From a virus, in IMG/VR virus record IMGVR_UViG_3300031566_000118, positions 1 to 42,266 of that record: a DNA stretch of 42,266 nt; one strand, 5' to 3'. Shown one piece after another: positions 6,437-32,798 of this stretch. Under the pieces are notes generated by a model. It ran no database searches and was not told the DNA's origin. It worked only from the letters and a program-made list of their open reading frames with translations. The position numbers and the translations under genes are program-made. The stretch's first letter is position 1. The number at the start of each line of letters is the position of its first letter.

Positions 6437-6754
6437 ATGCAATCAGGTGAACTTAAAAAACTTATAACTCTTCAATATGAAACTAAAACGGCAGACGGGA
6501 TGGGATCGTTTACGGTAGTCTGGACTGATTTGGCAACTGTTTGGGCGGCTATCTGGCCGATATCTGCCAATGAAATAGTACAATCTATGCAGACTAATAT
6601 GATCATAAGCCATAGGGTCAGGATTCGATATAGAAGTGGGGTTCTTTCAAGCTGGAGAATCAAGTTCGGTGATCGCTATTTTAATATTGTGAGCATAATT
6701 AACCCTTCAGAACGAGGGGAATGGCTCGATATTATGGCAAAGGAGTCAACCTAA
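6437..6754 (+). CDS. head-tail adaptor (SPP1 gp16-like stopper)
   Basis: 105 residues with the standard pattern of this family: GELKKLITLQ at the N-terminus, DGMGSFTVVWTDLATVWAAIWPISANE in the middle, then HRVRIRYRSGV and a closing strand FNIVSIINPSERGEWLDIMAKE. These proteins plug the connector and mark the head-tail joint. It sits between the connector and the tail terminator as expected. Confidence 0.9.
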   Translation: MQSGELKKLITLQYETKTADGMGSFTVVWTDLATVWAAIWPISANEIVQSMQTNMIISHRVRIRYRSGVLSSWRIKFGDRYFNIVSIINPSERGEWLDIMAKEST

Positions 6755-6767
6755 GGAGATAGTATAA

Positions 6768-6998
6768 ATGTTTCTAAGTGTTAGGCATAAGCCATTGCAA
6801 AAAGAGGCATTACGACATTTTGTCATTAATAAGGATAATGATGAGGAGATCCCTCGCGTGATTTGGGCGAATGATGAAACAGGACGCTACCGGCAATATC
6901 TAATAGATAATGCAGGGAAGCTAATAGTCGAAAATGGGGAAATCAAAAGCAAGATATTTACTGGAAATATTGAATTGCGGAAAAGGAAGTCAACTTAA
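6768..6998 (+). CDS. small hypothetical phage protein of the head-tail joint region
   Basis: 76 residues with a core of ..DEEIPRVIWANDETGRYRQYLID.., a pattern seen in other small phage proteins next to head-tail adaptors. AAGGAGA (6754-6760) precedes the ATG, and the next gene starts on the base after its stop. Function unknown. Confidence 0.65.
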   Translation: MFLSVRHKPLQKEALRHFVINKDNDEEIPRVIWANDETGRYRQYLIDNAGKLIVENGEIKSKIFTGNIELRKRKST

Positions 6999-7427
6999 AT
7001 GCTCAATCTTACGACAGCTATAATAACAAAAGCTGCTGGATCTACTTTTTTGACCAGTATTGGTAGCCAATTACGTAACGGTAGGGCTGAAGATGATGAT
7101 GCTTATCCCTATTGTGTCTTTTTGCTTCCTGTATTTGGCGACCCTCAATCACTATCAACATTTGAGAGGGACTATAACGACATATTAATGCAGTTTTCAA
7201 TTTTTTCGGCACTGCATGCGCCATCTGAAGCTTGGACGATTTATGGATACCTAAAGGAACTTTATGATGATTGTACGCTAGAGACGCTTACTGGAGAGAC
7301 ACTAATTTTAATGGAGCGCCGAAATATACCACAACCAATACCAGAAGATCATACGATAAAGGGTGGCGGTTTGCAAAGGGTTTGGCACCTTCCTGTTGAA
7401 TATGGCATTGTAACGAAGCTCGATTAA
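6999..7427 (+). CDS. tail terminator / tail completion protein
   Basis: 142 residues of the small alpha/beta fold used by tail terminators: an N-terminal helix, then DAYPYCVFLLPVFGDPQ, a central strand LMQFSIFSA, a helix AWTIYGYLKELYDDC, and a final long strand after LILMERRNIPQP. This layout (helix, 'YPYVVF' strand, 'QFSIFS' strand, helix, C-terminal strand) is that of gp17/DUF3168-type completion proteins. The position before the tail tube supports it. Confidence 0.78.
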   Translation: MLNLTTAIITKAAGSTFLTSIGSQLRNGRAEDDDAYPYCVFLLPVFGDPQSLSTFERDYNDILMQFSIFSALHAPSEAWTIYGYLKELYDDCTLETLTGETLILMERRNIPQPIPEDHTIKGGGLQRVWHLPVEYGIVTKLD

Positions 7428-7644: not shown

Positions 7645-8306
7645 AAAATAAAAATATCATAGTAGCTCGGAACTTAATCAGATGCCTCGACCTCGACAGC
7701 CTCCGAAACGCAGAAGTTGTGGCAAATCTCGTGCGCTGTTTCGGGATTGTCGCATGGCCGCAGTCAACCGGCCCGGAAATGCAGTTCATTGTTCCTGTAG
7801 GAATAGCACAGACTCCCCAGCAGATCGCCAAGGCCCTTGTCTATGTGAGCCAATTTAAGATCACTTCATTCTGTGAGATCGGCGTCATGCACGGCGGAAA
7901 TTTTCTTTTCTGTTCGGAATATCTCCGGCGATTCAACTCAAATATTCGATGTATAGGCATTGATCCGGCGGATTGTCTTGACCCGGAGATCCGGGAGATT
8001 ATCGAAAAAGAGGTATGGTTGAGTTTCAAACCTTCCACAAGCGATGACATCGCGGGTATGATCTTCGATCTCATCTTCATTGACGGAGATCACACAATGC
8101 CCTGGCTCGTGAGGGACTGGGAGAATGTCGGGCGGCTTTCAAAGATATGCGCTTTTCATGACCTACAGGAGCCTACGTGTCCCGACGTGGCGGTATTTTG
8201 GGAAATACTAAACGGTGAAAATAAAGAGAAGTTTGAATTTCTTGACGATCCATCTGGGCGCAAGATACATGGGATCGGGATTATTCATGCAAAAGGAATC
8301 GAATGA
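7641..8306 (+). CDS. class I SAM-dependent methyltransferase (Methyltransf_24 / CmcI-like)
   Basis: 221 residues from the ATG at 7641, chosen because it overlaps the previous stop; an in-frame TTG at 7593 lies inside the previous gene. The SAM-binding loop CEIGVMHGGNF is at ~78-88, an acidic ribose-binding strand CIGIDPAD follows, and the post-motif IDGDHTMPWLVRDWE is at ~147-161. These motifs fit O-methyltransferases that act on sugars or small molecules. The stop overlaps the glycosyltransferase at 8303 by ATGA, so the two probably act in one pathway. Confidence 0.8.
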   Translation: MKNKNIIVARNLIRCLDLDSLRNAEVVANLVRCFGIVAWPQSTGPEMQFIVPVGIAQTPQQIAKALVYVSQFKITSFCEIGVMHGGNFLFCSEYLRRFNSNIRCIGIDPADCLDPEIREIIEKEVWLSFKPSTSDDIAGMIFDLIFIDGDHTMPWLVRDWENVGRLSKICAFHDLQEPTCPDVAVFWEILNGENKEKFEFLDDPSGRKIHGIGIIHAKGIE

Positions 8307-9637
8307 AAAATGTTCACCTTTTCATGCCGTTCACAAGGTACGAACTCTGGTCGAAATTGCTTGACGCATATCGGCCAATGAACGTGATTCTGCATCCGCT
8401 CACGTTCACGGGTACACCGCCGGTTGAATATTCTGAGGAATGGATTCAGCCCTTCGTTTACAACAAACCGAAATATGGTGACTTCGGAGTTCCCCTGCAC
8501 AACGCATTTATACGAGAATTTCCCATCGCCGATGATGACTATTATGTCCAAATGGCAGATGATGATATGTATGAGTCGGGGGTATTCGATTCTATCAGAA
8601 AACTCGATGATCCCGTGGTAATTATCTCCATGAAACGCGGAGATTGTGTTCCCCCCAACGCACTTCCAGAACGGGCATACCCGACAAATACCCTTCTGGC
8701 AAAACCCGAAAATATGGTTGTCGGAAAAGTAGGCGGTGAACAGGTCTTTATGAAGGGATCTGTTTTGAAACTAGTTCAGTATGATGAAAATTATCCGGCT
8801 ATCGCCGATGGATTGATGGCCGAATACCTCAAGACCATATATCCAATTCATTATGAACCAGACCTGTTTGCTCTTTTCAATTTCTATGAGCCTGGGCGAT
8901 GGGATAAAGGCGAAGCGAAGACGCACGGGAATACTGGTTTAAATGATAGCATGTTAAACATCCAATTTGGGGTGATGGTCAATGACCAAGTGCGTCTTGA
9001 TATGGTTCTCCGGCAATCGCAAATTAAAGGCAATATGCACTATCTCGACGAACCCGAATCAGCTACAAAGGGACTGAATAAACTCCTTGCCGTGATGGAG
9101 GCTGAAGGTGCGGACATAGCGGTCCTTTGTCACCAGGATATGTTTTTCCGGCACGATTGGATCAAGCAGGTTGAGGAACAATTGGCGAAACTACCCGATT
9201 CATGGCTTGTTGCCGGAGTTATCGGGAAGGATATGCGGGGACGGATATGCGGCAAATTTCATGCCATGCAGATCCCTCTTTACCATGATACTTCAGAGAT
9301 TCATAACTTTCCGGAACCCGCATGTTGTCTTGATGAATGCGTTCTTATTGTTAATCTTAAAAGGGGGTTTAGGTTTGATGAGGGCTTGGAAGGATTTGAT
9401 TTGTATGGAACATTAATTGTTTTGCAGGCATGGCAAATGGGTTTAACGGCTTGGGTTATCGATGCTTTTTGTGAGCATTATTCTTTGCGGCCACTTCCAT
9501 ATTTTCCAGATGAGTCATTTCGGAATGGTTTTAAATGGATTTATAACAAGTTCAATAAAAAAGTGATTAGGATTGATTCAACAGCAGCGGAATTTTCCGC
9601 AGAAAAAACAGAGCTTGAAACGCCAACGGCGGTATAG
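8303..9637 (+). CDS. two-domain GT-A glycosyltransferase
   Basis: 444 residues. Residues ~1-215 have a GT-A-like core with a DxD-type acidic motif in VQMADDDMYESGVF (~82-95). Residues ~225-430 resemble a second nucleotide-sugar domain with the phrase ADIAVLCHQDMFFRHDWIKQ (~270-290), as in GT2-like (Glyco_tranf_2_5-type) enzymes. Codon use and G+C are higher in the first two-thirds than in the last 300 bases, which are AT-rich, suggesting a mosaic origin. It is coupled to the methyltransferase upstream. Confidence 0.75.
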   Translation: MKNVHLFMPFTRYELWSKLLDAYRPMNVILHPLTFTGTPPVEYSEEWIQPFVYNKPKYGDFGVPLHNAFIREFPIADDDYYVQMADDDMYESGVFDSIRKLDDPVVIISMKRGDCVPPNALPERAYPTNTLLAKPENMVVGKVGGEQVFMKGSVLKLVQYDENYPAIADGLMAEYLKTIYPIHYEPDLFALFNFYEPGRWDKGEAKTHGNTGLNDSMLNIQFGVMVNDQVRLDMVLRQSQIKGNMHYLDEPESATKGLNKLLAVMEAEGADIAVLCHQDMFFRHDWIKQVEEQLAKLPDSWLVAGVIGKDMRGRICGKFHAMQIPLYHDTSEIHNFPEPACCLDECVLIVNLKRGFRFDEGLEGFDLYGTLIVLQAWQMGLTAWVIDAFCEHYSLRPLPYFPDESFRNGFKWIYNKFNKKVIRIDSTAAEFSAEKTELETPTAV

Positions 9638-10170: not shown

Positions 10171-10650
10171 ATGTTGATTGACCTTGATGTCTCACAGGGA
10201 GAATGGTTTCCGTTTTTCGGTTCACATATCGATCAAGCAACTGGCGATGTTGTTTATCATGACCCGGAGCCGGATGCGCGAGCACAAATCAGAAGCACAG
10301 CTCCGTTCTTTGAACTGAAATTGAAGGGCAGGGAAAGACGCAGGGAACACGTCTTCAATCCCAAATCCAGGGGTATGGATCGAATAACATATTTCAAAGA
10401 CCAAACCGTTGAAGAACAGATGGTTGAACTCGATGAAATGTACGACTATGCCATTACAGAACTAGAGGGATTCAAAGACAAGCGCACGGGGAAGGTAATA
10501 GACTGCACAAGGGAAAATAAGGCGCTCTTGCGACACAATGAGGTGTTCAATCGCTACTTTAATCGCTGCCAACAAATCCTGCATGGCAGCAGCATTAAAG
10601 ATAAAGAGGACGCCGAAAAAAACTCCTCGACTCCGCAGGATGGGCAATAG
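10171..10650 (+). CDS. tail assembly chaperone (gpG-like), zero-frame product
   Basis: 159 residues; begins with a tube-like beta segment and continues with the helical EEQMVELDEMYDYAITELEGFKD. Position between tube and tape measure and the in-frame A AAAAAC slip site near its 3' end identify it as the short product of a G/GT chaperone pair. Most ribosomes should end here at TAG 10648-10650; a minority should shift to the -1 frame and make a 257-residue fusion. The chaperone pair coats the tape measure while the tube polymerises around it. Confidence 0.82.
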   Translation: MLIDLDVSQGEWFPFFGSHIDQATGDVVYHDPEPDARAQIRSTAPFFELKLKGRERRREHVFNPKSRGMDRITYFKDQTVEEQMVELDEMYDYAITELEGFKDKRTGKVIDCTRENKALLRHNEVFNRYFNRCQQILHGSSIKDKEDAEKNSSTPQDGQ

Positions 10651-10671
10651 AGTATGCTTCGTCTTGCGGAG
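10617..10671 (+). promoter_or_regulatory. programmed -1 ribosomal frameshift signal
   Basis: A AAA AAC (10617-10623) is read in the zero frame as xxA AAA AAC, the canonical slippery heptamer. Seven bases later a stem begins: 10631-10642 pairs with 10660-10671 over 12 bp (two G-U pairs) around a 17-nt loop. After slipping, the -1 frame is open from CTC at 10623 to the stop at 10943. All three elements (heptamer, spacer, stem) match known G/GT frameshift sites. Confidence 0.88.
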
Positions 10672-10943
10672 GATGCAGGAAGATGTATGCGAGGAGAATG
10701 CCCCCTGAAGAGCCTCCGTGTGCGGCATGCAGGATAGACCCGGTTGAAGAAAATGGAGATGCACTAAGGATATTCTTCATTGTTCAGAACCAGTTTGTGA
10801 TGGGATTTAATGGACCTGTAAGTATTAATCAGCTTGCAATACATGAGGCCATTAGGCTTTACGAGGTTGCTGACCATCAGGGATGCTTCGAGGGGGTCTT
10901 GCGGCTGGGGCGATGGTGGATCGAGAAGATGAGGGAGAGATAA
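10623..10943 (+). CDS. tail assembly chaperone extension (T part of G-T fusion), -1 frame
   Basis: The -1 frame is open from the slip site; an internal ATG at 10683 exists but has no good ribosome binding site. The extension contains YASSCGGC and EEPPCAACRID (two CxxC pairs, a possible zinc site), then a helical stretch INQLAIHEAIRLYEV and ends in RLGRWWIEKMRER, similar in layout to gpT-like/DUF1799-type chaperone parts. It should exist mainly as the C-terminal part of a 257-residue fusion with the upstream product. Confidence 0.8.
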   Translation, partial: LLDSAGWAIEYASSCGGCRKMYARRMPPEEPPCAACRIDPVEENGDALRIFFIVQNQFVMGFNGPVSINQLAIHEAIRLYEVADHQGCFEGVLRLGRWWIEKMRER

Positions 10944-11359: not shown

Positions 11360-12514
11360 GTGGCGCAATTCTCCGAAGAACATAGAAGAAAACTATCTGA
11401 GGCAGCGAAACGACGTTGGCAAGATCCTGAGTATTGCAAGGAAATGGCATCCATCGTGATAACGGATGAAGGCAGAAAGGCGATATCCGATAGCATGAAA
11501 GCTAGATGGCAAGATTCGGAATATAAAAAGAATCATCCGAAAGTTAATCTATCTGAATCAGCAAGGCGTAGTATATCTGAGAAAGCCAAAAAAAGATGGT
11601 CCGATCCTATATTTAAATCACGAGTAACAAAGAAAATAGGCAAAACAGCCAAGGAAGTTTGGGAACGACCTGGATACAAAGAAAAAATGTCCGAATCTTT
11701 AAGGGGATGTTGTGCTGGCGAAAAGAACCATATGTGGGGGAAAAAGCTATCAATAGAAGGTCGCAAAAAGCTAAGTGAGGCACATAAGGGAATCCAAGCT
11801 GGAGAAAATCATCCAATGTTCGGCAAACATCATTCTAATGAATCAAAACAGAAAATGAGTGAATCCCATAATGATTATCAATCTGGGGAAGGGCACCCGA
11901 TGTTTGGGAGGCATCATTCTGAAGACTCCAAAGCAAAGATAATCGCGGCTCATTTAGGCATCCCATTATCAGAGGAACATAAAAAGAAAATAGGAAAAGC
12001 CAGCAAGAGAGTTTGGGCAACAATAGATGAAGAAAAAAAGAAAGTATGGCGACAGAAAATAGGTGATGGCAACAAGGGAAAAATTATTTCTAAAGAATCC
12101 AGAGAAAAATTATCCAAAGCACACAAGAAACTTTGGGAAAACCCAGAACACGCAAAAAAATGCCTCGTTTTTAATTCTCCTAACAAGTGCGAAACTAAAC
12201 TTATGAATCTTTTGGATAAAATATATCCTGGCGAATGGAAATTTGTAGGGGACGGACAGGTTGTTATAGACGGGAAATGCCCTGATTTTATCAATATAAA
12301 TGGGAGGAAACAGATTATAGAGCTTTACGGCGAAAGATGGCACCAGGATGATGATCCGCAAGACAGGATCAATGTATTCAAACCATTTGGATATGATACC
12401 TTAATCATCTGGGTGAAAGAATTATCAAACAAAAAAAGGTTAGAGCGCACGCTTGTTACCTTTTGCCAAGGAGATCCTAACTTTTTGGTATTGGAAAAAG
12501 GAGGTTGTCGATAA
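11360..12514 (+). CDS. free-standing homing endonuclease, NUMOD3 repeats plus Vsr/EDxHD-like nuclease
   Basis: 384 residues, GTG start 2 nt after the previous stop. Residues ~1-270 contain many NUMOD3-type DNA-binding units, e.g. GENHPMFGKHHSNESKQKMS and GEGHPMFGRHHSEDSKAKI, and N-terminal 'RRKLSEAAKRRWQDPEY' units. Residues ~275-384 form a PD-(D/E)XK/Vsr-like nuclease: CETKLMNLLD, CPDFIN (acidic), IIELYGERWHQDD and a closing DTLIIWVKEL. AT-richer than its flanks. It splits the tail operon without an intron, so it is a mobile, free-standing endonuclease gene. It also supplies the ribosome binding site for the tape measure. Confidence 0.85.
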   Translation: MAQFSEEHRRKLSEAAKRRWQDPEYCKEMASIVITDEGRKAISDSMKARWQDSEYKKNHPKVNLSESARRSISEKAKKRWSDPIFKSRVTKKIGKTAKEVWERPGYKEKMSESLRGCCAGEKNHMWGKKLSIEGRKKLSEAHKGIQAGENHPMFGKHHSNESKQKMSESHNDYQSGEGHPMFGRHHSEDSKAKIIAAHLGIPLSEEHKKKIGKASKRVWATIDEEKKKVWRQKIGDGNKGKIISKESREKLSKAHKKLWENPEHAKKCLVFNSPNKCETKLMNLLDKIYPGEWKFVGDGQVVIDGKCPDFININGRKQIIELYGERWHQDDDPQDRINVFKPFGYDTLIIWVKELSNKKRLERTLVTFCQGDPNFLVLEKGGCR

Positions 12515-12574: not shown

Positions 12575-15500
12575 ATGAAAGGCCAGCAGACCCTTTTCAA
12601 AGAGGCCCAAGATGGCGCATCTGTCCTTGAAAAGAACTTTAAGAATCTGGGTATCAAATCCGGGGCGACTTTTGATCTCATGCGGGCGCAGGCCGAGAAG
12701 TCCTTTGAAGCCATTCAAAAGAGCGGCAAGGCTACGGCAGATGATCTTGTCCGGGCAGAAAAGGCTAAGACCGACAAAATCAAGCAACTCAATGAGGAGC
12801 AGTACGGACACCAAAAGACTCTTTTAGAAGACCTGAAAAATCATTGGAAGGCATACGCGATAGCGGTAACGGCCGCTGTATATGCGGCTCAGAAAATAGC
12901 GGTGAAATCAATCTCATTGGCTATGGAACAGGAAAAGGCTGAGGTTGCTTTAGCTGCATCCCTGAGAGCCAATAATGAATATACCAAGGAGCTTGTCAAG
13001 AGTTATGCTGATTTTGCTTCTGGTATTCAGGCAGTTACGACATACGGGGATGAAGAAGTCTTGAAGTTAATGGCGCTTCAGAAAAACCTTGGCGTGACTT
13101 CTGATAGGCTGGAAGATGCTACTAAGATGACTATCGGTCTTGCTGCTGCAACGGGGCGAGATGTGCAATCTATGGCAATGTATATTGCCCTTGCGGAGCA
13201 GGGCGAGTTTACAATGCTCCGAAGGTATATCCCTGCCCTTCGGTCTACCACTGATGCCACTGAACAATTACAAATTATAACAGAGTTCGCAGCAAGGGGC
13301 TTTGAGGTTGCGAAGGAAAATGCCAAGACCTTCTCCGGTGGCCTGGACCAGCTAAAAAATCTCTTTGGAGACTTACAGGAACGCGTAGGGAATGTGGTTG
13401 TCAAGAATGAAGTCTTATTGCATTTAATGGAAGAGGGCAAATCAACCTTACTGGAATGGATTGATAAAGTTGAACAATGGGTAAATGCCAATGATAAACT
13501 AATAGAACAAAAGACGTATGAAACTATTGATAAGATAAAGGCAAGCATCCAAGGTATCGTTGATATTTACAATGCACTTCCTGAAGGAATTGTAGGGGCT
13601 GGTGCCGTTGGCCTTGTGGGAAGGATACTCATAGGCCATCCAGCCGGATTATTGCTTGGCCTATTGCCACTTATAGCTGCCCAGATAGATAATCTTGCAA
13701 AAAAGATGAGTGGTCTTAGTGTTGCTGAACTTTATGAGGAGCATCAAAAATTAATCGATAATATGTATGCTGCCTCTAAAGCCGGGATCCCATACGAAGA
13801 ATGGTCTGCAATATTCGGCGGCGGTAAGGGCGGTAAGGGTGCAGGGGGTGAATTTGGAACGGTTGTAAGTGATGAAATCAAGAAGATTGCAAAAGCCTTG
13901 GAGGAAGAGGCAGATGCTATCGAGAAGGTAAAGAAGCTCGCAAAGGATCTTTATGGTCCCACTAAGATTTCCGCTGCCGATGCTGAAAAAATTCTTAAAG
14001 ATGTCACCGATGAGATGGACAAATTTAACGCTGCGAGTGAGGAGGCTTGGGCGACTTATCAGAACCTTCATGATGAACGTTTCAATCTGGGCGATGCCGC
14101 TGGTGACTTAGAAACCCTGAAAGAATTGACTTGGGGATGGGCGAATGAATTACAGGCTGTTGCGGATCTGGAAAAAGAGATCGCAGTGGGAATGGAAGCG
14201 ACTGAGTGGAGCCTAGGGAAAGCTAACGAACAAACAAAAAAAGCATACGAAGAGGCAGAAAAAGCCGCCGAGAAAGCCGCAAAAGAATATGAAGCTATTT
14301 GGACTCATGCGCTTGAAGGCTTGCAGGATGCCTTCAGGGACTTTTGGTACAACGTGCTCGATGGGCAGATAGATAACTGGGAGAGTTTCCTGGATGAAAT
14401 ATCCAACTTGTTCAAGAAAATGCTGTCAGAGCTTATCGCGTATGCCATGACGAAGCAGATAATAATTCCTGTCGTGGGTAGCATATTCGGCACAGCAGGC
14501 ACTTCACTTTTAGGTCAAGCGGGTACGAGTGCCGGTGGAAGTCTTCTTGGAAATCTAGGTATGAATTTGGCGGGTAAACTCGGTTACGAAGTAGGATATG
14601 CTGGGATTACGGGCGGCATTCCTTCGCTCGGGTCCCTTCTCAATACTCCTATCGGTGGGGGCGAGGTTTATGGTGCCATGTATGGCGGGGGTATGTCGGG
14701 CACCTCAAGCATGGGGGCGACTTTAGGCACGACCGGATTTCTTGCGGCTGCTGCAGCCATGGCTTACTATATCATATCAGAGACATTGAATAAGAATAAA
14801 CGGCCTACTGCGGGTACTGAATTTACTATCGGAAGAGGTGGACCGGAGGAATCGCTATTGACAGGGGAATTGGGGTATGTCGGTTCCTCTAATCTTTCTG
14901 CCGATATGATAAATCAGGTAATTGAGCAGAATCAGGCAATCCTTGATGATGCCCTGGGGTTCTATCAAACGCTATATGACAACTTGGGGCCAGAGGCTCA
15001 GCAGAATATCCTTGCACAATTAGACGATCTTACGCCTTTTAAAATTACTGCAAACCTTGGGGGCGAAGCGTCAAATACAACGCGCCAAATGACCGAAGAA
15101 GAACGGACATATTTTCAAGGTATAGCGGCCCAAAGAGATGCACTGGTAATAAGAACCTGGGATGATTGGATGGGGGTATTTATCGAGACCATTTCTGATA
15201 CTAGTCTTTATGATGAGTTGAACTTGCAATTACAACGAGTAGATCTCGCAGCTAATACTATCTTTGAATCCTTGGGTACAGCATATACGCACTATTGGGA
15301 TGAAGCTATAGGCCAGTGGGTTAAATATTGGGAAGACAGCAGTGATTTCTTTACAGGTTCAGAACACCCCAGCGTATTTAAGCTAGTTGGTCATACTATC
15401 GGTGCTCCATTTGCCGAGGAATTCATATCAAGCATACGAGAGGGATTTGAAGGATCGGATGTTTTTGATATCGCATCGGAACAACTCAAGGGTCTCCTGG

Positions 15501-16456
15501 ACACTCTTACGGTAGGTAATTTCGTTGATGACATTGAGCTATTCCTAACTCAGTTAAATCAAGTGGGAATTGCGATTAATAATGCCGAGGTGATATGGGA
15601 GAGCTTTCAGCGATTTATCGATACGAGCGCGGAGTCCACGAATGCAGTTACTGAAGCGATTGCAACTGCTAACCAGCAGTTTGATGCCTATCTGGTAGCA
15701 TTGGAAGAGGTAGGCATTGACCTTTCTTTAGTGACCGACCTTGAGGGTAAACGAGCGCAGGCGATAGAGAAGACCATTGAAAAATTGGCTGAGCCTATCT
15801 GGAAACCCATCAAGGATATTATCGCAAAGAATACCCTTTCCTCTTTCAATTACGAACTACAAAACCTCAATGAATGGTATGAAACCCAGCTTGACAGCAT
15901 CAAGGGCTTTGAGACGGAGGCCCCGGACATTTTTACCCAGATGCTTGCCAACCTGAACGAAGCCGCCGGATACCAGGCTCAAAATCTCATTGACAATTAC
16001 ATTACTCCTGTCACTGATGAATGGCAAAATTTCTTTTCCGACCTTGCCCTATCTCAATTAGCTCCTGTCCAAAGTTATGAAGCCTATCAAATGGAATACC
16101 AGCGGCTACTCGCAATGGCCGGTCAGAGTGCAGAGGATTTTCAGAAATATTCTGATTATGTCAAGAACGAATACTTGCCCTGGATGAAAGCCTATACTGG
16201 GGAAGGCCCGGATTATAAAGACATTTGGGAATCGGTATATGCCCAAGGAACGGCAATAGGTGTACCGGGTGCAACCGAGCAAGCGCCACTGAGTCTTGAT
16301 TTGACTGGGCTGAGTAATGCCTTTCTTGATGCGATACAACCGATCCTGGAACGAGACCAATCAATAACGATAGTCATTGATGGCCACACAATAGCAGATA
16401 TCATTGTTGAACAATACAATAACGGGCATGAAGGTTTAAGGTCAATTTGGGTATAG
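12575..16456 (+). CDS. tape measure protein
   Basis: 1293 residues in the long frame (about 1313 if the displaced 20-residue start is included). The N-terminal half is alpha-helical coiled coil rich in Ala, Glu and Lys. Hydrophobic segments lie at ~337-372 and ~721-735, with a Gly-rich stretch between ~640 and 720, as in tape measures that act in DNA injection. The C-terminus is IVIDGHTIADIIVEQYNNGH followed by a GLRSIW end, reused in the next gene. It follows the chaperones. By the usual ~1.5 A per residue, the tail would be near 200 nm. The in-frame ATG 12575 has only a weak AAGG site. Confidence 0.88.
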   Translation: MKGQQTLFKEAQDGASVLEKNFKNLGIKSGATFDLMRAQAEKSFEAIQKSGKATADDLVRAEKAKTDKIKQLNEEQYGHQKTLLEDLKNHWKAYAIAVTAAVYAAQKIAVKSISLAMEQEKAEVALAASLRANNEYTKELVKSYADFASGIQAVTTYGDEEVLKLMALQKNLGVTSDRLEDATKMTIGLAAATGRDVQSMAMYIALAEQGEFTMLRRYIPALRSTTDATEQLQIITEFAARGFEVAKENAKTFSGGLDQLKNLFGDLQERVGNVVVKNEVLLHLMEEGKSTLLEWIDKVEQWVNANDKLIEQKTYETIDKIKASIQGIVDIYNALPEGIVGAGAVGLVGRILIGHPAGLLLGLLPLIAAQIDNLAKKMSGLSVAELYEEHQKLIDNMYAASKAGIPYEEWSAIFGGGKGGKGAGGEFGTVVSDEIKKIAKALEEEADAIEKVKKLAKDLYGPTKISAADAEKILKDVTDEMDKFNAASEEAWATYQNLHDERFNLGDAAGDLETLKELTWGWANELQAVADLEKEIAVGMEATEWSLGKANEQTKKAYEEAEKAAEKAAKEYEAIWTHALEGLQDAFRDFWYNVLDGQIDNWESFLDEISNLFKKMLSELIAYAMTKQIIIPVVGSIFGTAGTSLLGQAGTSAGGSLLGNLGMNLAGKLGYEVGYAGITGGIPSLGSLLNTPIGGGEVYGAMYGGGMSGTSSMGATLGTTGFLAAAAAMAYYIISETLNKNKRPTAGTEFTIGRGGPEESLLTGELGYVGSSNLSADMINQVIEQNQAILDDALGFYQTLYDNLGPEAQQNILAQLDDLTPFKITANLGGEASNTTRQMTEEERTYFQGIAAQRDALVIRTWDDWMGVFIETISDTSLYDELNLQLQRVDLAANTIFESLGTAYTHYWDEAIGQWVKYWEDSSDFFTGSEHPSVFKLVGHTIGAPFAEEFISSIREGFEGSDVFDIASEQLKGLLDTLTVGNFVDDIELFLTQLNQVGIAINNAEVIWESFQRFIDTSAESTNAVTEAIATANQQFDAYLVALEEVGIDLSLVTDLEGKRAQAIEKTIEKLAEPIWKPIKDIIAKNTLSSFNYELQNLNEWYETQLDSIKGFETEAPDIFTQMLANLNEAAGYQAQNLIDNYITPVTDEWQNFFSDLALSQLAPVQSYEAYQMEYQRLLAMAGQSAEDFQKYSDYVKNEYLPWMKAYTGEGPDYKDIWESVYAQGTAIGVPGATEQAPLSLDLTGLSNAFLDAIQPILERDQSITIVIDGHTIADIIVEQYNNGHEGLRSIWV

Positions 16457-16473
16457 TTTAAAAGGAGTTAGGT

Positions 16474-16692
16474 ATGGCACATAGCGAAAAATGTCCTGTC
16501 TGCAATGGCAAGGGTAAGGTTAAAAAGGAACAATGTCATGGGTGTCTTGGTTTAGGCTGGGTGACTGTGCAAGATCAGCTAATTATTAAAGAAACAGAAT
16601 GTGCAGTTGTTGTTGATGGTCACAGTATAGCCGACGCTATCATTGAACAATATAATAATGGTCATCAAGGATTGAGATCAATCTGGCAGTAG
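16474..16692 (+). CDS. zinc-finger microprotein carrying a copy of the tape-measure C-terminus
   Basis: 72 residues. Residues 7-30 hold two DnaJ-type CxxCxGxG units (CPVCNGKG and CHGCLGLG), which bind zinc. Residues ~45-72 repeat the last 28 residues of the tape measure with 21 identities (VVVDGHSIADAIIEQYNNGH, then GLRSIWQ). AAGGAG precedes the ATG. The shared tail suggests that both proteins dock to the same partner, perhaps the tail tip or the chaperone complex, with this protein as an assembly factor. Function is an inference. Confidence 0.75.
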   Translation: MAHSEKCPVCNGKGKVKKEQCHGCLGLGWVTVQDQLIIKETECAVVVDGHSIADAIIEQYNNGHQGLRSIWQ

Positions 16693-16701
16693 GATTGAAT
16701 T

Positions 16702-17121
16702 ATGGCTGAAATTGAAATGTATGACTACTTAGCGACGATTGCGGCTGACAATAACCAGACGTTAACAGTTAGCCCCCGGAAGGTCATTGTTGAGACTGGC
16801 TATAAGAATCAAGTCATCCACAAGATGGATGATAATAGCGAAGAGAGGATTGATTTTGGCACTGCTAACATATCAGAGTTTGATGTGACACTTCCATTTA
16901 CCTCTCTAACCGCATCAGACGCAGGAACCTTAATGTTATTCTGGCATAATAGCGGTTATGGCAATGGATGTACTAAAACCTTTAAATGGGCTCATCCTGA
17001 AGATACTCATACTTATGTAATCAGGTTTGATTGTGATTTACCACGAGCCATTAAATATTATGGAGAACATGAAATAGCCAATGTAAAAATAAAAGTCTTA
17101 GGTAGGATAGCAGACGCATAA
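16702..17121 (+). CDS. minor tail protein, distal tail region
   Basis: 139 residues, beta-rich: RKVIVETGYKNQVIHKMDDNSEERIDFGTA, then a strand pair and FKWAHPEDTHTYVIRFDCDLPRAIKYYGEHEIANVKIKVLGR. The terms 'KW..P.D..TYVVRF' and a closing strand pair are typical of distal-tail or DUF2460-like proteins that join the tube to the tip. It overlaps the next tail tip gene by one base (TAATG). Confidence 0.65.
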   Translation: MAEIEMYDYLATIAADNNQTLTVSPRKVIVETGYKNQVIHKMDDNSEERIDFGTANISEFDVTLPFTSLTASDAGTLMLFWHNSGYGNGCTKTFKWAHPEDTHTYVIRFDCDLPRAIKYYGEHEIANVKIKVLGRIADA

Positions 17122-19652
17122 TGGCTGTAACCTTTGGTGCAAATCAAATCACTATCGCAGCTTCAAGATATAAGCTGGTGTCATGGTTATTTACTATTAC
17201 CACAACAGCTACCGCCGATCCTCCAGCAGGGAACGCATACCCTTGGTCACACAAGGCAATTATTTATGATGCACAACCTTATACGGCCAAGATTGACCTT
17301 GAATCGATTGTAGTCACTCTCACTCGTGGTAAATCCGAACTCGGGCTTGTCACCCCTAATAGCCTGAAATTCCGATTTACAAATGCTGGAAACACTTACA
17401 CCTCTGCTAAACTTCGGGGTGCCGCTGTGCTTGTTAAACTCGTTGTCAGTGATGGCACCCTCACTGAAATTATGAGGACATGGCGGTTTCGGGTAAAGAA
17501 GGCCGAGGGCGCATATCAGTGGATGAATGTCGAGTGTGAGGATTTTGTGCAGCAATATATCAAAGGCGATTATCCTAACACGCCACTTGTAAAAAATTTA
17601 TGGTATTCCATTGATCCTGATGCCAAAGGGATCAATGATACTCTTTCCATTCCTATCCCATTCGGGACTTGTTATGTGCCGTTAAGATCGGTCTATATTA
17701 GCGCGGATACTGCGCGGTATTATGTGCTCGGCCCCAGTGCCCATACCTATACAATTACAGAAGTCCGATCTCCAAGAGCATGGGGCGCAAAACGCGTATG
17801 GGCAAGTGGTGACGGCTATGCATTTACCCAATCCACGAAAACAGGAAGTGACGGAAATACTTATGATGTATTTCAGCCAATAATCGCAGATAGCGATTCG
17901 GATACTGTTGCTGACGCGAATGGTCTATGGCGGGAAGGTGAGCGATTTTTGGATATGCCCACCAAGTTTAGTCGTGATGATACCTCTGCATTAACCGCCC
18001 CTGGCGATGTTATCGAGTTTGTTCTAGAAGACATGGGAGTGCCTTCTGCTGATATTAATACTGGCGCAGGTTCAACTTTTGCGACTGCCAATACCGTCTA
18101 TTCGGGATGGTCGCTCGCTTATAATGGCGGGTATTTCTACAAGCAAGATAGAGCCGAAGTCATATCACAACTCCTCTATCAGTGCCATTCCTGCTTCCAG
18201 GTCACCGATAAACTTGAACTACATGTGCTATCAAAGGACTCACAAGCAACCCTCACGAAAGCAAATGTAATTCGGCAGGTCAAACAACCAGGGCAAAGAG
18301 AGGGTAAAGGGGAAGGCAGTTTCAAGTATTCTTTGCTTGATCCATCCCTTGAAGATGCGGGTAATGTGGCATATCAGGAAGCAGGGGAAGCACAAGATGA
18401 ATTTCATAAAATCATAGTACCGACTGTTGACGGGGGTACACCTACTCAATATGCGGCAGAAACGATTATTTGCAATATGGTCTCGGATAGCCAGGATGTT
18501 CAGCGAATAGGGACGTTATACTTTCAGCGCAAACTTGAAAAGGATGGCATGGCATCGTTTAAGGCCGGGGGATTCAACCTTGACTTACAACCGAATGATG
18601 TAATTACCCTCAATCATGCTGATTATGGTGGTAACTATGCGGTGCTGATGGATACGATGACTATCCATTATGACCTATCCATTGACATGAAGTGCATTAA
18701 GTATGCTGTAGCCTTAGAGGATTGGGCAGGTGTTAACCCTGGTGCGATAACAATTGCTATTGACGCTGGCGCTACTTACTGGACGTCAGTTATAGTAGGG
18801 CCAGATGCTTCCGTATCATCTGGCACAATGCCCAATCTTCTTCCTGGCCGTCTTAAAGTGGGGGATGCCACAAACTATATCCTCTTTGATCCTTTCATTC
18901 CCATAATGAGTTTTTATCAGGGGGCACAAATAAGGGTCAAAGTTGGGGATTTAGGAACGGGCGATTATGGAGTTGAATTTCTAGATTCTTCTGGCAATTC
19001 CATTCTGAAGCTTGATGGCTCTGGTGGCAATATCCTAGCTGGGTGGACAGTGGATTCCAATAAATTCACCTGTGACAGTGGTGCGGTGGGCCTGAATAGT
19101 GAAGTAACTGGAGGAACTGACTGGCGCATCTGGGCAGGACACGCAACGCCGGGAAGCGCACCTTTCAGAGTTGATGAAAACGGCAACCTTTATGCCACAT
19201 CAGCCATTATCCAGGGGATCATCACGGCAGGCGAGATCCACATCCCGGATCAGGACGTAACAGGTGAGAGTTTTCATGTCCAGCCGGACGGGGATTCCTG
19301 GTGGGGCTGCACCGAAACCGAGTTCAACGCCGATCCTGATAACGCCCTTGCCTATATTCTGAAGACCGGGATTGCAAAGTTTCAAAATGTGGCCCTGGGT
19401 GCCACGGTGGGTGGGGCGGTGGAGCTCGGTTATACCAACATGGATACCTTTATTATCAATTTCGATGAGGATGATGTAGATGTCGAACTGCGTTTCGCCA
19501 GGACTACCGGCGGTGCTGCAAGTATCACCTGGAACGGTGCCCTGGTACAGTGCAGCAAGGCTTTAAAACCGGTGGATCTCGGCATCAATAACATATCAGC
19601 CAGTGCACCTGGCACGCCGTTTGCTGGTCAAGTTTGGCTAGATGTATCATAG
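17121..19652 (+). CDS. tail tip / baseplate hub and fibre protein
   Basis: 843 residues. The first ~560 resemble a hub-type tip protein with many strands and a 'LQPNDVITLNHADYGG' turn late in the hub. The part from ~595 resembles the central-fibre tails of siphoviruses: FLDSSGNSILKLDGSGGN, WTVDSNKF, GGTDWRIWAGHATPGSAPFRVDENGNLYATSAIIQG. These motifs fit the connecting domains of host-recognition fibres. From ~19195 to its end the gene is visibly richer in G+C than the rest, so the fibre end may have been exchanged by recombination. Confidence 0.75.
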   Translation: MAVTFGANQITIAASRYKLVSWLFTITTTATADPPAGNAYPWSHKAIIYDAQPYTAKIDLESIVVTLTRGKSELGLVTPNSLKFRFTNAGNTYTSAKLRGAAVLVKLVVSDGTLTEIMRTWRFRVKKAEGAYQWMNVECEDFVQQYIKGDYPNTPLVKNLWYSIDPDAKGINDTLSIPIPFGTCYVPLRSVYISADTARYYVLGPSAHTYTITEVRSPRAWGAKRVWASGDGYAFTQSTKTGSDGNTYDVFQPIIADSDSDTVADANGLWREGERFLDMPTKFSRDDTSALTAPGDVIEFVLEDMGVPSADINTGAGSTFATANTVYSGWSLAYNGGYFYKQDRAEVISQLLYQCHSCFQVTDKLELHVLSKDSQATLTKANVIRQVKQPGQREGKGEGSFKYSLLDPSLEDAGNVAYQEAGEAQDEFHKIIVPTVDGGTPTQYAAETIICNMVSDSQDVQRIGTLYFQRKLEKDGMASFKAGGFNLDLQPNDVITLNHADYGGNYAVLMDTMTIHYDLSIDMKCIKYAVALEDWAGVNPGAITIAIDAGATYWTSVIVGPDASVSSGTMPNLLPGRLKVGDATNYILFDPFIPIMSFYQGAQIRVKVGDLGTGDYGVEFLDSSGNSILKLDGSGGNILAGWTVDSNKFTCDSGAVGLNSEVTGGTDWRIWAGHATPGSAPFRVDENGNLYATSAIIQGIITAGEIHIPDQDVTGESFHVQPDGDSWWGCTETEFNADPDNALAYILKTGIAKFQNVALGATVGGAVELGYTNMDTFIINFDEDDVDVELRFARTTGGAASITWNGALVQCSKALKPVDLGINNISASAPGTPFAGQVWLDVS

Positions 19653-19664
19653 AAAGGAGAAAGT

Positions 19665-20936
19665 ATGATTTCTATCCTGACACCCGTGCATAAAGCATCA
19701 GAGCAATATCTTAGTGAGGCTTATGAATCTTTGACGACGCAAACCCTTCCAGATTGGGAATGGATAATAATAACTAATGGAGGTGGTACAGTCTCTGAAG
19801 ATTTAATAAGAGATAAGAAGATCAAAATCTTTCCAGTTGAGGATGATGATCCTAAAGGAGAATATAACTGCATTGGCCGTCTTAAAAAATATGCTGCTTC
19901 TCAGGCTCAGGGAGAAATCCTGGTGGAGCTGGATGCCGACGATATCCTGATGCCGGATAGCCTGGAGGAGATCCGCAGGGCCTTTGAAGACCCGGCCGTG
20001 GCCATGGTGTATTCCAACAGCGCGGAGTTCAAGCAGGAGACCTGGGAGAGTTCAGCTTATTCCAACTATTGGGGCTGGCAGTCCCGGCCGTTCTTCTATA
20101 ACGGTCACAAATTGCAGGAGATGCTCGCCTGGCCTCCGGGGCCCCACATGATGCGGTTTATCTTCTGGGCCCCGAACCATGTGAGGGCCTGGCGCAAGGG
20201 CGCCTATGACGCGATCGGCGGCCATAACGAGAAGCTGAAGACCGGGGACGATCATGAACTCTGCTGCCGCTTTTATGCGGAATACGGGGCGCGAGGCATG
20301 AGGCATATTGATAAGTGCCTGTACCTCTACCGGGTCCACGACGGGAATTCCTGCCGGGTCTATAATAACGACGTGCAGGTACAGACCCTGCAAAACTATC
20401 TCAAATTCAGCCGGTCCATGGCCGTCCGCTGGGCAAGGGATGAAGGGCTGCGGCTCATTGACCTTGGCGGCCAGTTTAATCCGTGGGCCGGGTTCGAGAC
20501 CGTTGATCTCGTAAATGCGGAGATCTCCGCGGATCTCAACAAAAAATGGCCTTTTAAAAACAGCAGCGTGGGGGTGATCAAGGCCTCCCATGTGTTCGAG
20601 CACCTGAAGGATCCGGTCCATACCATGAACGAGGCCTATCGCGTGCTGGCACCGGGCGGGTGGCTCTTTATCGAGGTGCCTTCCACGGATGGCCGCGGGG
20701 CCTTCCAGGATCCGGGCCATGTCTCGTTCTGGAACCAGAACTCGATCTGGTACTACACAAATCGAAATTATTCCCGTTTTATCCCGGGCTATAAGGGACG
20801 GTTTCAGAACAGCCGCACGGTCACGTATTTCCCGACCGAGTTTGAGAAGAATAACAACATCCCTGTCGTACAGGCGGACCTGATCGCCTTGAAACCGCCA
20901 TACGATGAACGCCCTGTTGGAGAGGTATTGATTTAA
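19665..20936 (+). CDS. GT-A (GT2-like) glycosyltransferase fused to a class I methyltransferase
   Basis: 423 residues. Residues 1-~245 are a GT2 domain: MISILTPVHKASEQYLSEAY, the DxD motif LVELDADDILMPDS (~87-100) and the late GGHNEKLKTGDDHELCCRF acceptor segment. Residues ~260-423 are a methyltransferase: LIDLGGQFNPW, ISADLNKKWPF, HVFEHLKDP and YRVLAPGGWLFIEVPS (the post-SAM motif). The first 250 bases are AT-rich and the rest strongly GC-rich. It lies directly before the collagen-like fibre, so that fibre is an obvious candidate substrate. Confidence 0.85.
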   Translation: MISILTPVHKASEQYLSEAYESLTTQTLPDWEWIIITNGGGTVSEDLIRDKKIKIFPVEDDDPKGEYNCIGRLKKYAASQAQGEILVELDADDILMPDSLEEIRRAFEDPAVAMVYSNSAEFKQETWESSAYSNYWGWQSRPFFYNGHKLQEMLAWPPGPHMMRFIFWAPNHVRAWRKGAYDAIGGHNEKLKTGDDHELCCRFYAEYGARGMRHIDKCLYLYRVHDGNSCRVYNNDVQVQTLQNYLKFSRSMAVRWARDEGLRLIDLGGQFNPWAGFETVDLVNAEISADLNKKWPFKNSSVGVIKASHVFEHLKDPVHTMNEAYRVLAPGGWLFIEVPSTDGRGAFQDPGHVSFWNQNSIWYYTNRNYSRFIPGYKGRFQNSRTVTYFPTEFEKNNNIPVVQADLIALKPPYDERPVGEVLI

Positions 20937-21106
20937 TATGAACAATTAGGGTTCTTCGGACGGTAGGCCAACCAGAAGAAGACGCAAGAAAGAATTAAGG
21001 GCGGCAGTGAGGTGCCTCGCCATCTCATTGTTGCCCTTTTTCTTTGCCCTGAAAGAACACAACAGAATGCCACAGAGACTCAGGAGTCATGAGGTCTTGA
21101 TTTAAT
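20922..21106 (+). repeat. 169-bp segment between near-identical 16-bp repeats
   Basis: GAGGTATTGATTTAAT (20922-20937) at the end of the glycosyltransferase gene recurs as GAGGTCTTGATTTAAT (21091-21106) at the start of the collagen gene. Without the 169-bp interval the two genes would overlap as TAATG. The segment carries a terminator and no protein gene. Confidence 0.6.
20997..21045 (+). terminator. strong intrinsic terminator before the collagen-like gene
   Basis: 20997-21011 pairs with 21024-21038 over 15 bp (three G-U pairs) around a 12-nt loop, and the stem is followed by TTTTTCTTT (21037-21045). It is the best Rho-independent terminator in the + operon and should separate tail-tip transcription from the collagen fibre gene. 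Confidence 0.8.
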
Positions 21107-24100
21107 GGCCATATTGAAGATCAGAAATGCAGCGAACGACGCCTGGTATGAGCTGAGCGGCGCCCAGGGTGATATCGGCCCACAGGGGCCGCAGGGCTTT
21201 CAGGGCGTTGTCGGTGCACAGGGCGATCAGGGGGTGGTCGGCAATCAGGGCGCCCAGGGCGTGACAGGAGCGCAGGGATCGACAGGCGCCCAAGGGTCGA
21301 CAGGCGCACAGGGCGACCAGGGTGTTGCCGGCGCAACAGGTGCACAGGGCGCCCAGGGGATCGCAGGAGCACAAGGATCGCAGGGACCGCAGGGTGTTGT
21401 AGGAGCGCAGGGCGATGAGGGCGCAACCGGCGCAACAGGTGCACAGGGCGCCCAGGGGATCGCAGGAGCACAAGGATCGCAGGGACCGCAGGGTGTTGTA
21501 GGAGCGCAGGGCGATGAGGGCGCAACCGGCGCAACAGGCCCGCAGGGTACGCAGGGGGCGACAGGTACCCAGGGCTCGCAGGGGCCGCAAGGAAGTGTAG
21601 GTGCTCAGGGCGATGAAGGTGCAACAGGAGCAACAGGAGCTCAAGGTAACCAAGGCATTCCTGGAGCTCAGGGTAGTGTAGGTGCACAAGGTTCAGTAGG
21701 TGCACAAGGCGATGAGGGAGCTACAGGTGCAACTGGATCTCAGGGTGCACAAGGAATTACAGGTGCGCAAGGTTCACAGGGTCCGCAAGGCGTCGTAGGG
21801 GCTCAAGGCGATGAGGGTGCAACTGGAGCGACAGGATCTCAAGGTGATCAGGGAGCAACAGGTGCTCAAGGATCTATCGGTGCACAAGGATCAGTTGGTG
21901 CTCAAGGATTCCAAGGTGTAACAGGTGCAACAGGTGCTCAGGGTAATCAAGGAGTAACTGGTGCACAAGGAAGTATTGGTGCACAGGGAAGCCAAGGACA
22001 CCAAGGATTCCAAGGATCTACAGGAGCTACTGGATCACAAGGTACACAAGGTGTAGCTGGTGCACAAGGTTCAACTGGAGCTCAAGGTTCGGTAGGCGCT
22101 CAAGGATTTCAGGGAGATACTGGACCTGCGGGAGCAGAAGGTATTGTATGGCAAGGTACATGGAACAGTGAAACAACTTATGTAATTGATGACGCCGTAG
22201 CCGAGGGCGGGACATCTTATATATGTATTTTAGGACATACTAATCACCAACCTCCGAATGCAACATACTGGCATATTTTATCTTTAGAAGGTGCACAAGG
22301 ATCAACTGGCCCACAAGGTTCAGTCGGAGCACAAGGAAATCAAGGTGCAACCGGCGCCCAAGGTGCTACAGGATCTCAAGGTTCTCAAGGTGCAACTGGA
22401 GCAGTTGGTGCTCAGGGATTACCTGGGGATCAAGGATTTCAAGGTGCTACAGGTGTTCAAGGAGCTCCAGGCGCTCAAGGATCACAGGGTGAAACAGGAA
22501 CAACAGGTGCTCAAGGATCTGTCGGAGCTCAAGGCTTTCAAGGAGCTACTGGAGTTCAAGGTGCACCAGGTGCACAAGGAAGCCAAGGTGCGACTGGTGC
22601 CACAGGCGCTCAGGGATCAGTAGGCACTCAAGGTGATCAAGGTGATACGGGATCACAAGGTGCAACTGGATCTCAAGGAAGTCAGGGGGCTACGGGTGCA
22701 ACAGGGGCACAAGGCTCGGTGGGGCCACAAGGATTTCAGGGTTTAACAGGTACACAAGGAGCTACGGGATCACAGGGCGCTCAGGGAGCAACAGGTTCTA
22801 CGGGTGCACAGGGATCTGTAGGTGCACAAGGTGATCAGGGCGACGAAGGAGCTCAAGGTGCTACAGGAACTCAAGGAAGTCAAGGAGCCACTGGCGCGAC
22901 AGGAGCTCAAGGATCGACAGGTGCTCAGGGATTTCAAGGAGTTACGGGTGCACAAGGAATAACTGGTGCACAGGGATCGCAAGGTGCAACTGGCGCAACG
23001 GGCGCTCAGGGTTCCACAGGACCTCAAGGATTTCAAGGTTTAACAGGAGATCAGGGAGCCACTGGTTCACAGGGTAGTCAAGGTGCAACAGGGGATATAG
23101 GTGCTCAAGGTCCAACTGGAGCACAGGGTAATCAGGGTGCTACAGGATCACAGGGAGCTACAGGTGCGCAAGGCAGTCAAGGAAATGTAGGAGCACAAGG
23201 ATCTACAGGAACACAGGGTGCACAAGGGGCTACAGGATCAGAAGGTGCGCAGGGAGCTCAAGGTGCACAAGGAGCTCAAGGACTCCTTGGTGATACACTT
23301 GCACATTCAGTTACGATTAGTGATACTGGCAGTATACATTCCATGGGAAAGGATACTTATGATAGCATTGTACCTGGATTCATCCTTGGGTATGATGTAG
23401 ATGCTTACAAATTAAAAGTTGGTAGTCCAACATCAAATTTAGATTGGGATGGAAACGAGCTTACAATACTCGGTGCTGTAACAGCAGATTCTTTTGAATC
23501 AACCCTTTATGGTGACCTCACCCAAGCAATGTCGTATGTAAAAACTGTCCTTGGTGCTGGAGATGAATATAATCATGATTTAACTGATACAGATTTATCA
23601 GATGGAACAGAAAGTAATATAAATGCTGATACTCATCTTGATTATGGAGTTTCGATTAGATTAGCCACGCAAAAAGAATGGGATGATGTAGGAGCTGTTT
23701 GGGATACAGGTACATGGGATGTACCAATCGATTCTTCGGGAGATTGGACATCAGCATCAATAGATTTAGGAGCTCTCCAAACCTTACAACTTGGAATGCG
23801 TTTTATTTTAGAAGAAGAAGTCCCAGCATCTACTGATGTTATCATTTTTCTACAATATTCTATAGATGGTGTCGACTGGGGAGCAAACAGTCCAGACTTT
23901 GATGATACTAACTGGGAAACCTTAGTTCAAACATTACTAACAGGAAAAGTATATAAAGCTACTGGAGCTGTTTATACTTTCAGATACTTTAAGTTAAAAA
24001 TAGAGCTTGCAACAACAGTTACTACAGATGAAATAGTTTTGCATATGATGACATACTTGGGAAATGTTGTAAATCTTTTCCAAGAATTCACAGCTCAAAC

Positions 24101-24296
24101 TATAGCAGCGGGTGGAACAGTTTTCTCATTAGGTGATTTTAATTCAGCTCCTGCTATAACAGTAACTCCAGTAGGATCAACAGTTCTAGTTCCTTTGATT
24201 ACTACGCAGTCAGAATTAAGTGTAACTATAAAACTGTATAATTTAGCAGGAAATGATGTAGGCGGTATTGCTAATATAAATATTATAGGTGTGTAG
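21105..24296 (+). CDS. collagen-like tail fibre with internal carbohydrate-binding-like module
   Basis: 1063 residues. Residues ~18-727 are Gly-x-y triplets ([18 protein letters not shown]), which form a collagen triple helix. They are broken once at ~343-395 by a globular piece, [20 protein letters not shown] then [22 protein letters not shown], which resembles CBM5/12 or chitin-binding-type modules. Residues ~728-1063 form a C-terminal globular domain, probably the trimerisation and receptor-binding head. The N-terminal [17 protein letters not shown] should attach to the tail. The triplets contain many Thr, possible glycan sites. Codon choice changes within the repeat near 21600. Confidence 0.85.
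21333..21530 (+). repeat. 99-bp tandem duplication within the collagen repeat
   Basis: 21333-21431 is followed by a nearly exact copy at 21432-21530 (33 codons, starting GCAACAGGTGCACAGGGCGC). It is a recent duplication and shows that the number of triplets can change by unequal recombination. Confidence 0.85.
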
Positions 24297-31528: not shown

Positions 31529-31717
31529 TCAATCACTTACCCCTGGTTTGATTGATGCAGCTTTATCCAATACTAAACGAAGTTCTTTAGGGGAAATTCC
31601 CCACATTAAATTAATAAATTCAACGGAAATACCAACGTATTTTTCATTGGATAAATCAAAGTATTTCTTGTACTTTTCCCATAATTCTGGGGGACATTTT
31701 TGTTTCTGCATAGACAT
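31529..31717 (-). CDS. 62-residue protein overlapping the integrase end
   Basis: MSMQKQKCPPELWEKYKKYF, then a helical CKYVGISVEF-type segment without a known motif; overlaps the last 62 bases of the integrase gene in another frame. AGGTGAGA precedes the ATG. The overlap is unusual but the ribosome binding site is good. A small regulator or excisionase-like role is possible, but there is no clear HTH. Confidence 0.45.
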   Translation of the reverse strand: MSMQKQKCPPELWEKYKKYFDLSNEKYVGISVEFINLMWGISPKELRLVLDKAASIKPGVSD

Positions 31718-32738
31718 TTCTCACCTCATCCATCTCTATCTGGAAGTATCTTTCAAACGCCTTATTAGTCGAGTGCATGGTAGCCCGCTTGATTTGCTCC
31801 GGTGAACAATGCTCCCTCAGGGCCCGGGCCGAGCTGTGCCGTGTTCCTCCGTAGAGGTCAACACCCTCGATACCAAGATTTTTGCAAGCTTTTTTCCAAT
31901 ATCTGTATAGGTGTTTTCGTCCAAAGCCCGATAATTTGCTAGGGTTGACATTAGCACTGACCGCTTTGTTGTGTCGAAAAAAATATACATGAGGCAGTGC
32001 TCTCGGAAAGGATTTGACCAATTCAATATCTTCAGCCAGTAAAGGAACAGTCTTAAGCTTATTTTCCTTATTATATTTAACATTTACCACCCCCAGGGAG
32101 AGGTCAAAGTCTCCCTCTTTAATGTTTATAAGCTCCACTGGCCTGATGCTAATGTAAGTCGCCAGCCACTTAATCCCTATCCAAATCTTCGGGTTGATGT
32201 GATATGATATGCGTTTGACTTCCTCTATGATTCGCTGCTGTGTTTCCTTGTCTACTGTGCGCCGCCAACCTAGTTGGTACTTGACTTTCGGGAACTCGGG
32301 AAGCGGAATCTTTCGGTCCCGTTTACAGACCCACGAAAAAAAGGCGTGGATCGTTTCAAGATGCCGTGCTTTCGTAGTTGCAGATAATCCCCCTGGTAGA
32401 GATATAAGGAAATCCTCAATGTCACCGAAGGAAATGCTTTTAATATTCCGCGTTCCAAAGAAATCCATAGCTCTGCCCATGTGAGTTTTAAGATGACATA
32501 TATCTCTGAGCCGATCTTTACGAACATCAATCCACTTCCCCGCCAAAGCAGAGAAAGCCAAAGGCTGATCTTTTTGATAATCTCTGACATCTAGTACCCC
32601 CTTGTCATGTTCATAACGTAGCCCGGTTAAGAATCTCTCTGCCTCGTCCCAGCTCTTAAACCGCCGGAATACCCCCGGAAACTTGACGAAAAATGGAGCA
32701 CCCTTGCCACTTTTGTTGACATATACCCTGCCTTTCAT
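31656..32738 (-). CDS. int: tyrosine recombinase (phage integrase)
   Basis: 360 residues from ATG 32738, preceded by GGGGGGA; an in-frame ATG 60 bases upstream lacks a site. An N-terminal arm-binding part is followed by a core-binding domain (GKWIDVRKDRLRDICHLKTH) and a catalytic domain: R in ISIRPVELINI, K in NKENKLKTVPL, R in LYGGTRHSSA, H in ATMHST, and the nucleophile Y in FERYFQIE. The first His of the HxxR box is not visible (a Gly occupies it). It should recombine attP with a tRNA gene in the host. It lies next to the attP. Confidence 0.85.
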   Translation of the reverse strand: MKGRVYVNKSGKGAPFFVKFPGVFRRFKSWDEAERFLTGLRYEHDKGVLDVRDYQKDQPLAFSALAGKWIDVRKDRLRDICHLKTHMGRAMDFFGTRNIKSISFGDIEDFLISLPGGLSATTKARHLETIHAFFSWVCKRDRKIPLPEFPKVKYQLGWRRTVDKETQQRIIEEVKRISYHINPKIWIGIKWLATYISIRPVELINIKEGDFDLSLGVVNVKYNKENKLKTVPLLAEDIELVKSFPRALPHVYFFRHNKAVSANVNPSKLSGFGRKHLYRYWKKACKNLGIEGVDLYGGTRHSSARALREHCSPEQIKRATMHSTNKAFERYFQIEMDEVRNVYAETKMSPRIMGKVQEIL

Positions 32739-32798
32739 ACAGATCCCCCCTTTCTGTTTTTGGGGGAGTGTACTATGGAAGGGGGAAGGGGTCAACAT

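Follow-up and report, generated by a model that had tools for sequence, protein, structure and literature searches.

A zinc-module microprotein encoded behind a phage tape measure gene carries an old copy of the tape measure C-terminus

The stretch of DNA analysed here (the window) is a 42,266-base record covering positions 1-42,266 of IMGVR_UViG_3300031566_000118 and belongs to a temperate, tailed phage, with an integrase gene at 31656-32798. Its tail genes run in the order tail tube, G/GT, tape measure protein (TMP), microgene, gpM-like gene and hub; with the microgene set aside, this is the lambda-type order. A sister contig of the same phage, IMGVR 3300031539_000125, is 99.9% identical to the window over 18.5 kb and shows zero differences in the TMP gene and the microgene, which argues against an isolated assembly slip at this site, with the proviso that the two contigs may not be independent. 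All 21 differences between them are confined to a 270-bp patch (9217-9487) inside the gene at 8303-9637; they fall mostly at third codon positions and look like a recombination patch.

The TMP gene occupies positions 12575..16456 on the plus strand and encodes, as called, a protein of 1293 amino acids that matches phrog_167 (E=2e-7) and, by BLASTP, the TMPs of the related contigs L030, L110 and L121 (E 2e-13 to 1e-6). Likeness to the L030 protein extends beyond the C-terminal tail discussed below, the BLASTP matches having E 2e-13 towards the N-terminus and 1e-7 towards the C-terminus. An ATG at 12514, located behind the strong Shine-Dalgarno sequence AAAAAGGAGG, reads MAGKPIGTVF and resembles the TMP starts of L030 and L121; from there, a +1 frame change near 12540, common to both contigs of this phage, is required to reach the 1293-codon frame. 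This ATG, combined with the frame change, is probably the true start of the protein, and about 20 N-terminal residues are probably missing from the frame as called. The frame change may be programmed, an error or a mutation, and it leaves the full functionality of the phage in doubt. Immediately upstream of the TMP gene lies a NUMOD3 homing-endonuclease-like gene (11360-12514). A G/GT-type pair of tail assembly chaperones is found at 10171-10943, with a slippery A AAA AAC at 10617-10623 for a -1 shift into the second frame.

The microgene (16474..16692, plus strand) encodes a protein of 72 amino acids and is preceded by the Shine-Dalgarno sequence AAAAGGAG (16460..16467, plus strand), 6 nt before its ATG. 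An earlier, sequence-only reading of this locus had described a 1293-residue TMP followed by a 72-residue protein with a DnaJ-type CxxCxGxG pair at its N-terminus. Both open reading frames exist as described (12575-16456 and 16474-16692), as do the two zinc knuckles, CPVCNGKG (16492..16515) and CHGCLGLG (16534..16557), which lie on the plus strand and make up residues 7-28 of the microprotein. The DnaJ central domain model, PF00684, matches with E = 1.1e-4 and stays below its cut-off (22.8 vs 32.7 bits). More generally, no curated family reaches its cut-off for the zinc microproteins, the nearest being DnaJ and anti-TRAP.

The first 35 residues of the microprotein instead place it in a phage family, M[AS]HAE[KR]CPxCxGxG ... 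CHGCxGxGWVxVxD, represented on about 70 viral contigs (L012-L108). In the family alignments, the Cys and Gly columns are invariant or nearly invariant in the first knuckle and invariant in the second, and the microprotein keeps every invariant Cys, Gly and Trp column of the core of about 35 residues. Family members vary in their C-termini, where Pro and Tyr are often abundant, and a TMP-like tail is found in none of the about 70 other members, being restricted to the lineage of the window. At the loci tested, the neighbours of the family genes are mostly terminase, portal, head-tail adaptor and head protease genes. AlphaFold2 models the zinc module of the microprotein confidently (residues 1-33, with pLDDT 94-98 over residues 1-30), whereas the tail, a predicted strand and a helix at residues 52-61, reaches pLDDT 40-58. 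A Foldseek search with this model, whose tail is of low confidence, returns anti-TRAP first (E 0.013, prob 1.00, TM 0.39-0.53). By sequence, the microprotein tail has no match among solved structures, and our literature search found no paper on the zinc microprotein family or on TMP decoys.

Downstream of the microgene, a 139-aa protein is encoded at 16702..17121 (plus strand). Its best Foldseek match is the lambda tail-tip chain 8iyk_E (E=6e-4), accompanied by tail chains of GTA (6tba), T1 (9l9p) and Sf11, and VIA-align recovers the same lambda, GTA and T1 group with Z 4.8-6.1. Chain 8iyk_E has 109 residues, the size of gpM; the name gpM for it is our own assignment. Given that the model of the 139-aa protein is of moderate confidence (pLDDT 67), its identity as a lambda gpM-like distal tail protein is likely rather than firm; it is also a candidate neighbour of the site where the TMP would dock. 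The following gene (17121..19652, plus strand) encodes an 843-aa tail hub or tip protein (phrog_22201 tail fiber, E=4e-6). Also within the tail gene cluster is a family 2 glycosyltransferase fused to a methyltransferase (19665-20936). A 1063-aa protein with long collagen-like repeats (21105-24296; PF01391, E 8e-102) is probably a fibre.

The central observation at this locus is that the TMP and the microprotein have one C-terminal segment in common. The TMP copy, TIVIDGHTIADIIVEQYNNGHEGLRSIW, comprises 28 codons at 16367..16450 and the microprotein copy, AVVVDGHSIADAIIEQYNNGHQGLRSIW, lies at 16603..16686, both on the plus strand; 21/28 residues and 60/84 bases are identical. The sequence-only reading had placed this identity in the last 28 residues of each protein; the degree of identity holds, and the position is off by one, as the block stops one residue before each C-terminus (V in the TMP, Q in the microprotein). 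That two proteins share the segment is well beyond chance: the local alignment of the microprotein tail to the TMP scores 133, as compared to a mean of 28.9, an SD of 3.9 and a maximum of 49 for 2000 shuffles of the tail, and the runner-up among the 2278 pairs of C-termini in the window scores 36. The two proteins are not joined by translation. Their frames differ, and the frame of the microgene is open for only four codons before its ATG (76 vs 72 codons), which rejects a translational fusion; read-through of the TMP stop codon would meet another stop after four codons.

Comparison to related phages, a clade that we defined through the genes neighbouring the microgene, indicates which of the two copies came first. 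The segment recurs at the same position of the TMP in eight related contigs (six distinct TMP tails), and none of these has the microgene. In L009/L112, L030/L113, L110, L111, L118-L120 and L121 the TMP gene directly adjoins a homologue of the 139-aa gpM-like gene, and homologues of the hub gene follow after the gpM-like gene. The absence of the microgene from these relatives identifies it as an insertion between the TMP gene and the gpM-like gene. In L114, a homing-endonuclease-like gene (6629-7309) lies between the TMP gene and the distal tail gene; it is a homologue of the NUMOD3 gene of the window (31% identity, E 2e-20) and occupies the exact place at which the window has its microgene. 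The TMPs of the clade end roughly in [IV]xVxIDG[KR]xI[AG]xVV..Q...N..L...IRR, that is, a strand, D/N-G (G-G in L009), two variable residues, I or F, a helix and basic residues, and L114 follows the same pattern. The relatives' TMPs carry the tail, and their homology to the window TMP is not confined to it; the TMP has thus possessed the tail for long, and it is the microprotein that bears the copy.

The sequence-only reading was to fall if homologous tape measures proved to be without the shared tail; what we found is the same pattern at the same position, albeit with modest statistics. When a profile was built without the window sequences, both window tails were its top matches outside the training set, but only at E about 0.6, and support for the clade-wide motif therefore comes mainly from its position and from the homologous TMP sequence beside it. 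Between the two window tails, identity is 72% over 29 columns, whereas neither exceeds 38% against the TMP tails of other clade members, which makes them paralogues that arose in one lineage or were acquired from a close one. Beyond the clade, tblastn of the TMP, the TMP tail and the distal tail protein against 50,697 phage records gave no match, the hub matched these records over 48 residues only, and two scans of bacterial genomes gave zero confirmed relatives.

An insertion of this kind could by itself have left the second tail behind. When the zinc gene entered, it might have duplicated the 3' end of the TMP gene, leaving intact the TMP end as well as the region in which the next gene starts, and the copied tail would then have no function of its own as a tail. 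The relatives without microgene and the repeat on both sides of the zinc part speak for such a scar, and repeats also flank other small phage genes. In L023/L024, a zinc gene at the portal/protease junction is bracketed by a 26-bp direct repeat (24/26 identical; 2281-2306 and 2503-2528 in L023), of which one copy forms the end of the portal gene and the other both the end of the zinc gene and the beginning of the head protease gene. L021 has an exact repeat of 16 bp, and L104 has a 25-bp repeat around an unrelated gene. However, zinc genes do not have flanking repeats significantly more often than other small genes (4/71 vs 4/159, P=0.2), and the same numbers lend no support to a mobile zinc gene that regularly duplicates its target.

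Copying of a neighbour's C-terminus is likewise not supported as a habit of the zinc family, the window alone being clearly above shuffles. The HAYAKAG/HAHAKAG likeness in L023 lies within the shuffle range as protein, while the 26-bp repeat is real as DNA. Two further candidates, L069 (4737-5312) and L106 (4734-5324), were discarded: here the zinc core is located inside a protein resembling the small terminase subunit, next to a paralogue-like gene, and the zinc protein and its neighbour have a similar C-terminus (DAKxKLL...IA). These pairs look like ordinary paralogues.

What weighs most against a scar is the pattern of substitutions between the two copies. The 24 base differences are split 6/2/16 over codon positions 1/2/3, and they cause seven residue changes where 14.3 would be expected for 24 randomly placed base changes (P=5e-5). 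We obtained a dN of 0.14 and a saturated dS, and of the 20 identical residues with degenerate codons eight use the same codon, compared to 7.9 expected under independent choice from the codon usage of the phage, so that synonymous codons are effectively randomised. Silent sites have thus become saturated while 75% of the residues were kept, which indicates that the duplication is old and that both copies are under selection at the protein level; these estimates are coarse, as the segment has 28 codons only. Even if every amino acid change had occurred on the microprotein branch, that branch would look constrained in view of the high silent divergence, assuming similar branch lengths. Of all the evidence for a copied tail that works as a protein, we regard this conservation as the strongest. 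A functionless copy would not retain 21/28 residues as its synonymous sites saturate, and a scar would not be conserved, so that duplication upon insertion is the likely origin of the tail yet not a full account of it. That the tail is such a scar and nothing else seems improbable to us.

Work on other phages suggests what the segment might do. A TP901-1 TMP shortened by its last 30 residues yields heads without tails (PMC5099701), and in lambda the C-terminus of gpH is a three-helix coiled coil within the tail tip (PMC10721106). TMPs meet the tail-tip initiator complex through this end, and by analogy the segment of the window TMP is likely to serve as a docking tail there. Since the microprotein has kept the same segment, it would most likely be addressed to the same site. 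We therefore favour, at slightly better than even odds, a microprotein that is directed to the TMP C-terminal site and acts as an accessory of tail assembly, be it a cap, an adaptor or a minor component of the tip. The sequence-only reading had suggested that the small protein may compete with the TMP or guide it at the tail tip or connector, and our results do not discriminate between these two roles. A zinc-module gene would have entered between the TMP gene and the gpM-like gene and acquired the TMP segment, both copies of which were then retained by selection. Produced from the same operon while tails are being built, the microprotein might bind the tip proteins in which the TMP C-terminus is held, or else the bundle of TMP C-termini itself, and its zinc module could provide the effector or oligomerising half.

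Binding to the bundle is one of these two readings and is considered apart for its own predictions. Here, the shared tail would be a trimerising strand and helix through which the microprotein enters mixed bundles with TMP C-termini, and the microprotein would act as a chaperone dedicated to the TMP for as long as the tip is not ready. Anti-TRAP is a trimer built through its C-terminal helix (PMC11255114), the gpH C-terminus likewise trimerises (PMC10721106), and the microprotein unites an anti-TRAP-like module with the TMP segment. On the other hand, the phage already encodes a G/GT chaperone pair, and we consider this reading doubtful. Alternatively, the microprotein might imitate the TMP C-terminus as a decoy and so keep related superinfecting phages from assembling their tails or releasing their TMP, or it might limit the number of tails. 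It bears the docking segment without the ruler, and exclusion would suit a temperate phage; but the microgene is located in the late tail operon behind the phage's own TMP gene and has a strong ribosome-binding site, so that such a factor would poison the phage when its own tails assemble. Because of this position, we judge a decoy unlikely.

The favoured role as an assembly accessory can be phrased more specifically, if tentatively. It is possible, though we would not expect it on balance, that the microprotein is a diffusible second bearer of the docking segment, grafted onto an anti-TRAP-like zinc trimer, and that it works as a three-fold adaptor sharing or pre-occupying the seat of the TMP in the tip during assembly. 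If true, a three-fold zinc adaptor at this seat would be a previously undescribed kind of tail morphogenesis factor. Few structures show how the TMP is seated in the tail tip. A second natural bearer of the 28-residue segment, in which the silent positions are scrambled, indicates which residues are important for seating, and the microprotein provides a small, soluble tool with which to look for the partner of the TMP segment. The finding also points to an uncharacterised family of phage zinc microproteins with interchangeable C-termini.

The zinc module and the TMP tail are both known parts, and their combination is new and limited to one lineage. Anti-TRAP, or RtpA (PF15777, NF058604; PDB 3ld0, 2bx9), shares with the microprotein a small single-zinc CxxCxGxG module, behind which anti-TRAP has a C-terminal helix and the microprotein a predicted one, and its trimer appears to parallel the union of zinc module and TMP helix seen here. 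The microprotein nevertheless scores far below the cut-offs of these families (24.1 vs 65 bits for NF058604 and 18.5 vs 32 for PF15777), its tail is derived from a TMP, and its gene lies in a phage late operon. The DnaJ central domain (PF00684) has the same CxxCxGxG motifs, of which the microprotein contains two rather than four; it has no J domain and remains below the gathering score. Lambda gpG and gpGT are small tail assembly chaperones thought to act on the TMP, and the microprotein is likewise small; in contrast to the microgene, which is located downstream of the TMP gene and thus differs from G/GT chaperones with their upstream position and -1 frameshift, they are encoded upstream and have no zinc module. 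Similar to the C-termini of lambda gpH and the TP901-1 TMP, the segment forms the very end of homologous TMPs, whose genes precede the distal tail gene; in the phage of the window, however, a second, separate protein bears it as well.
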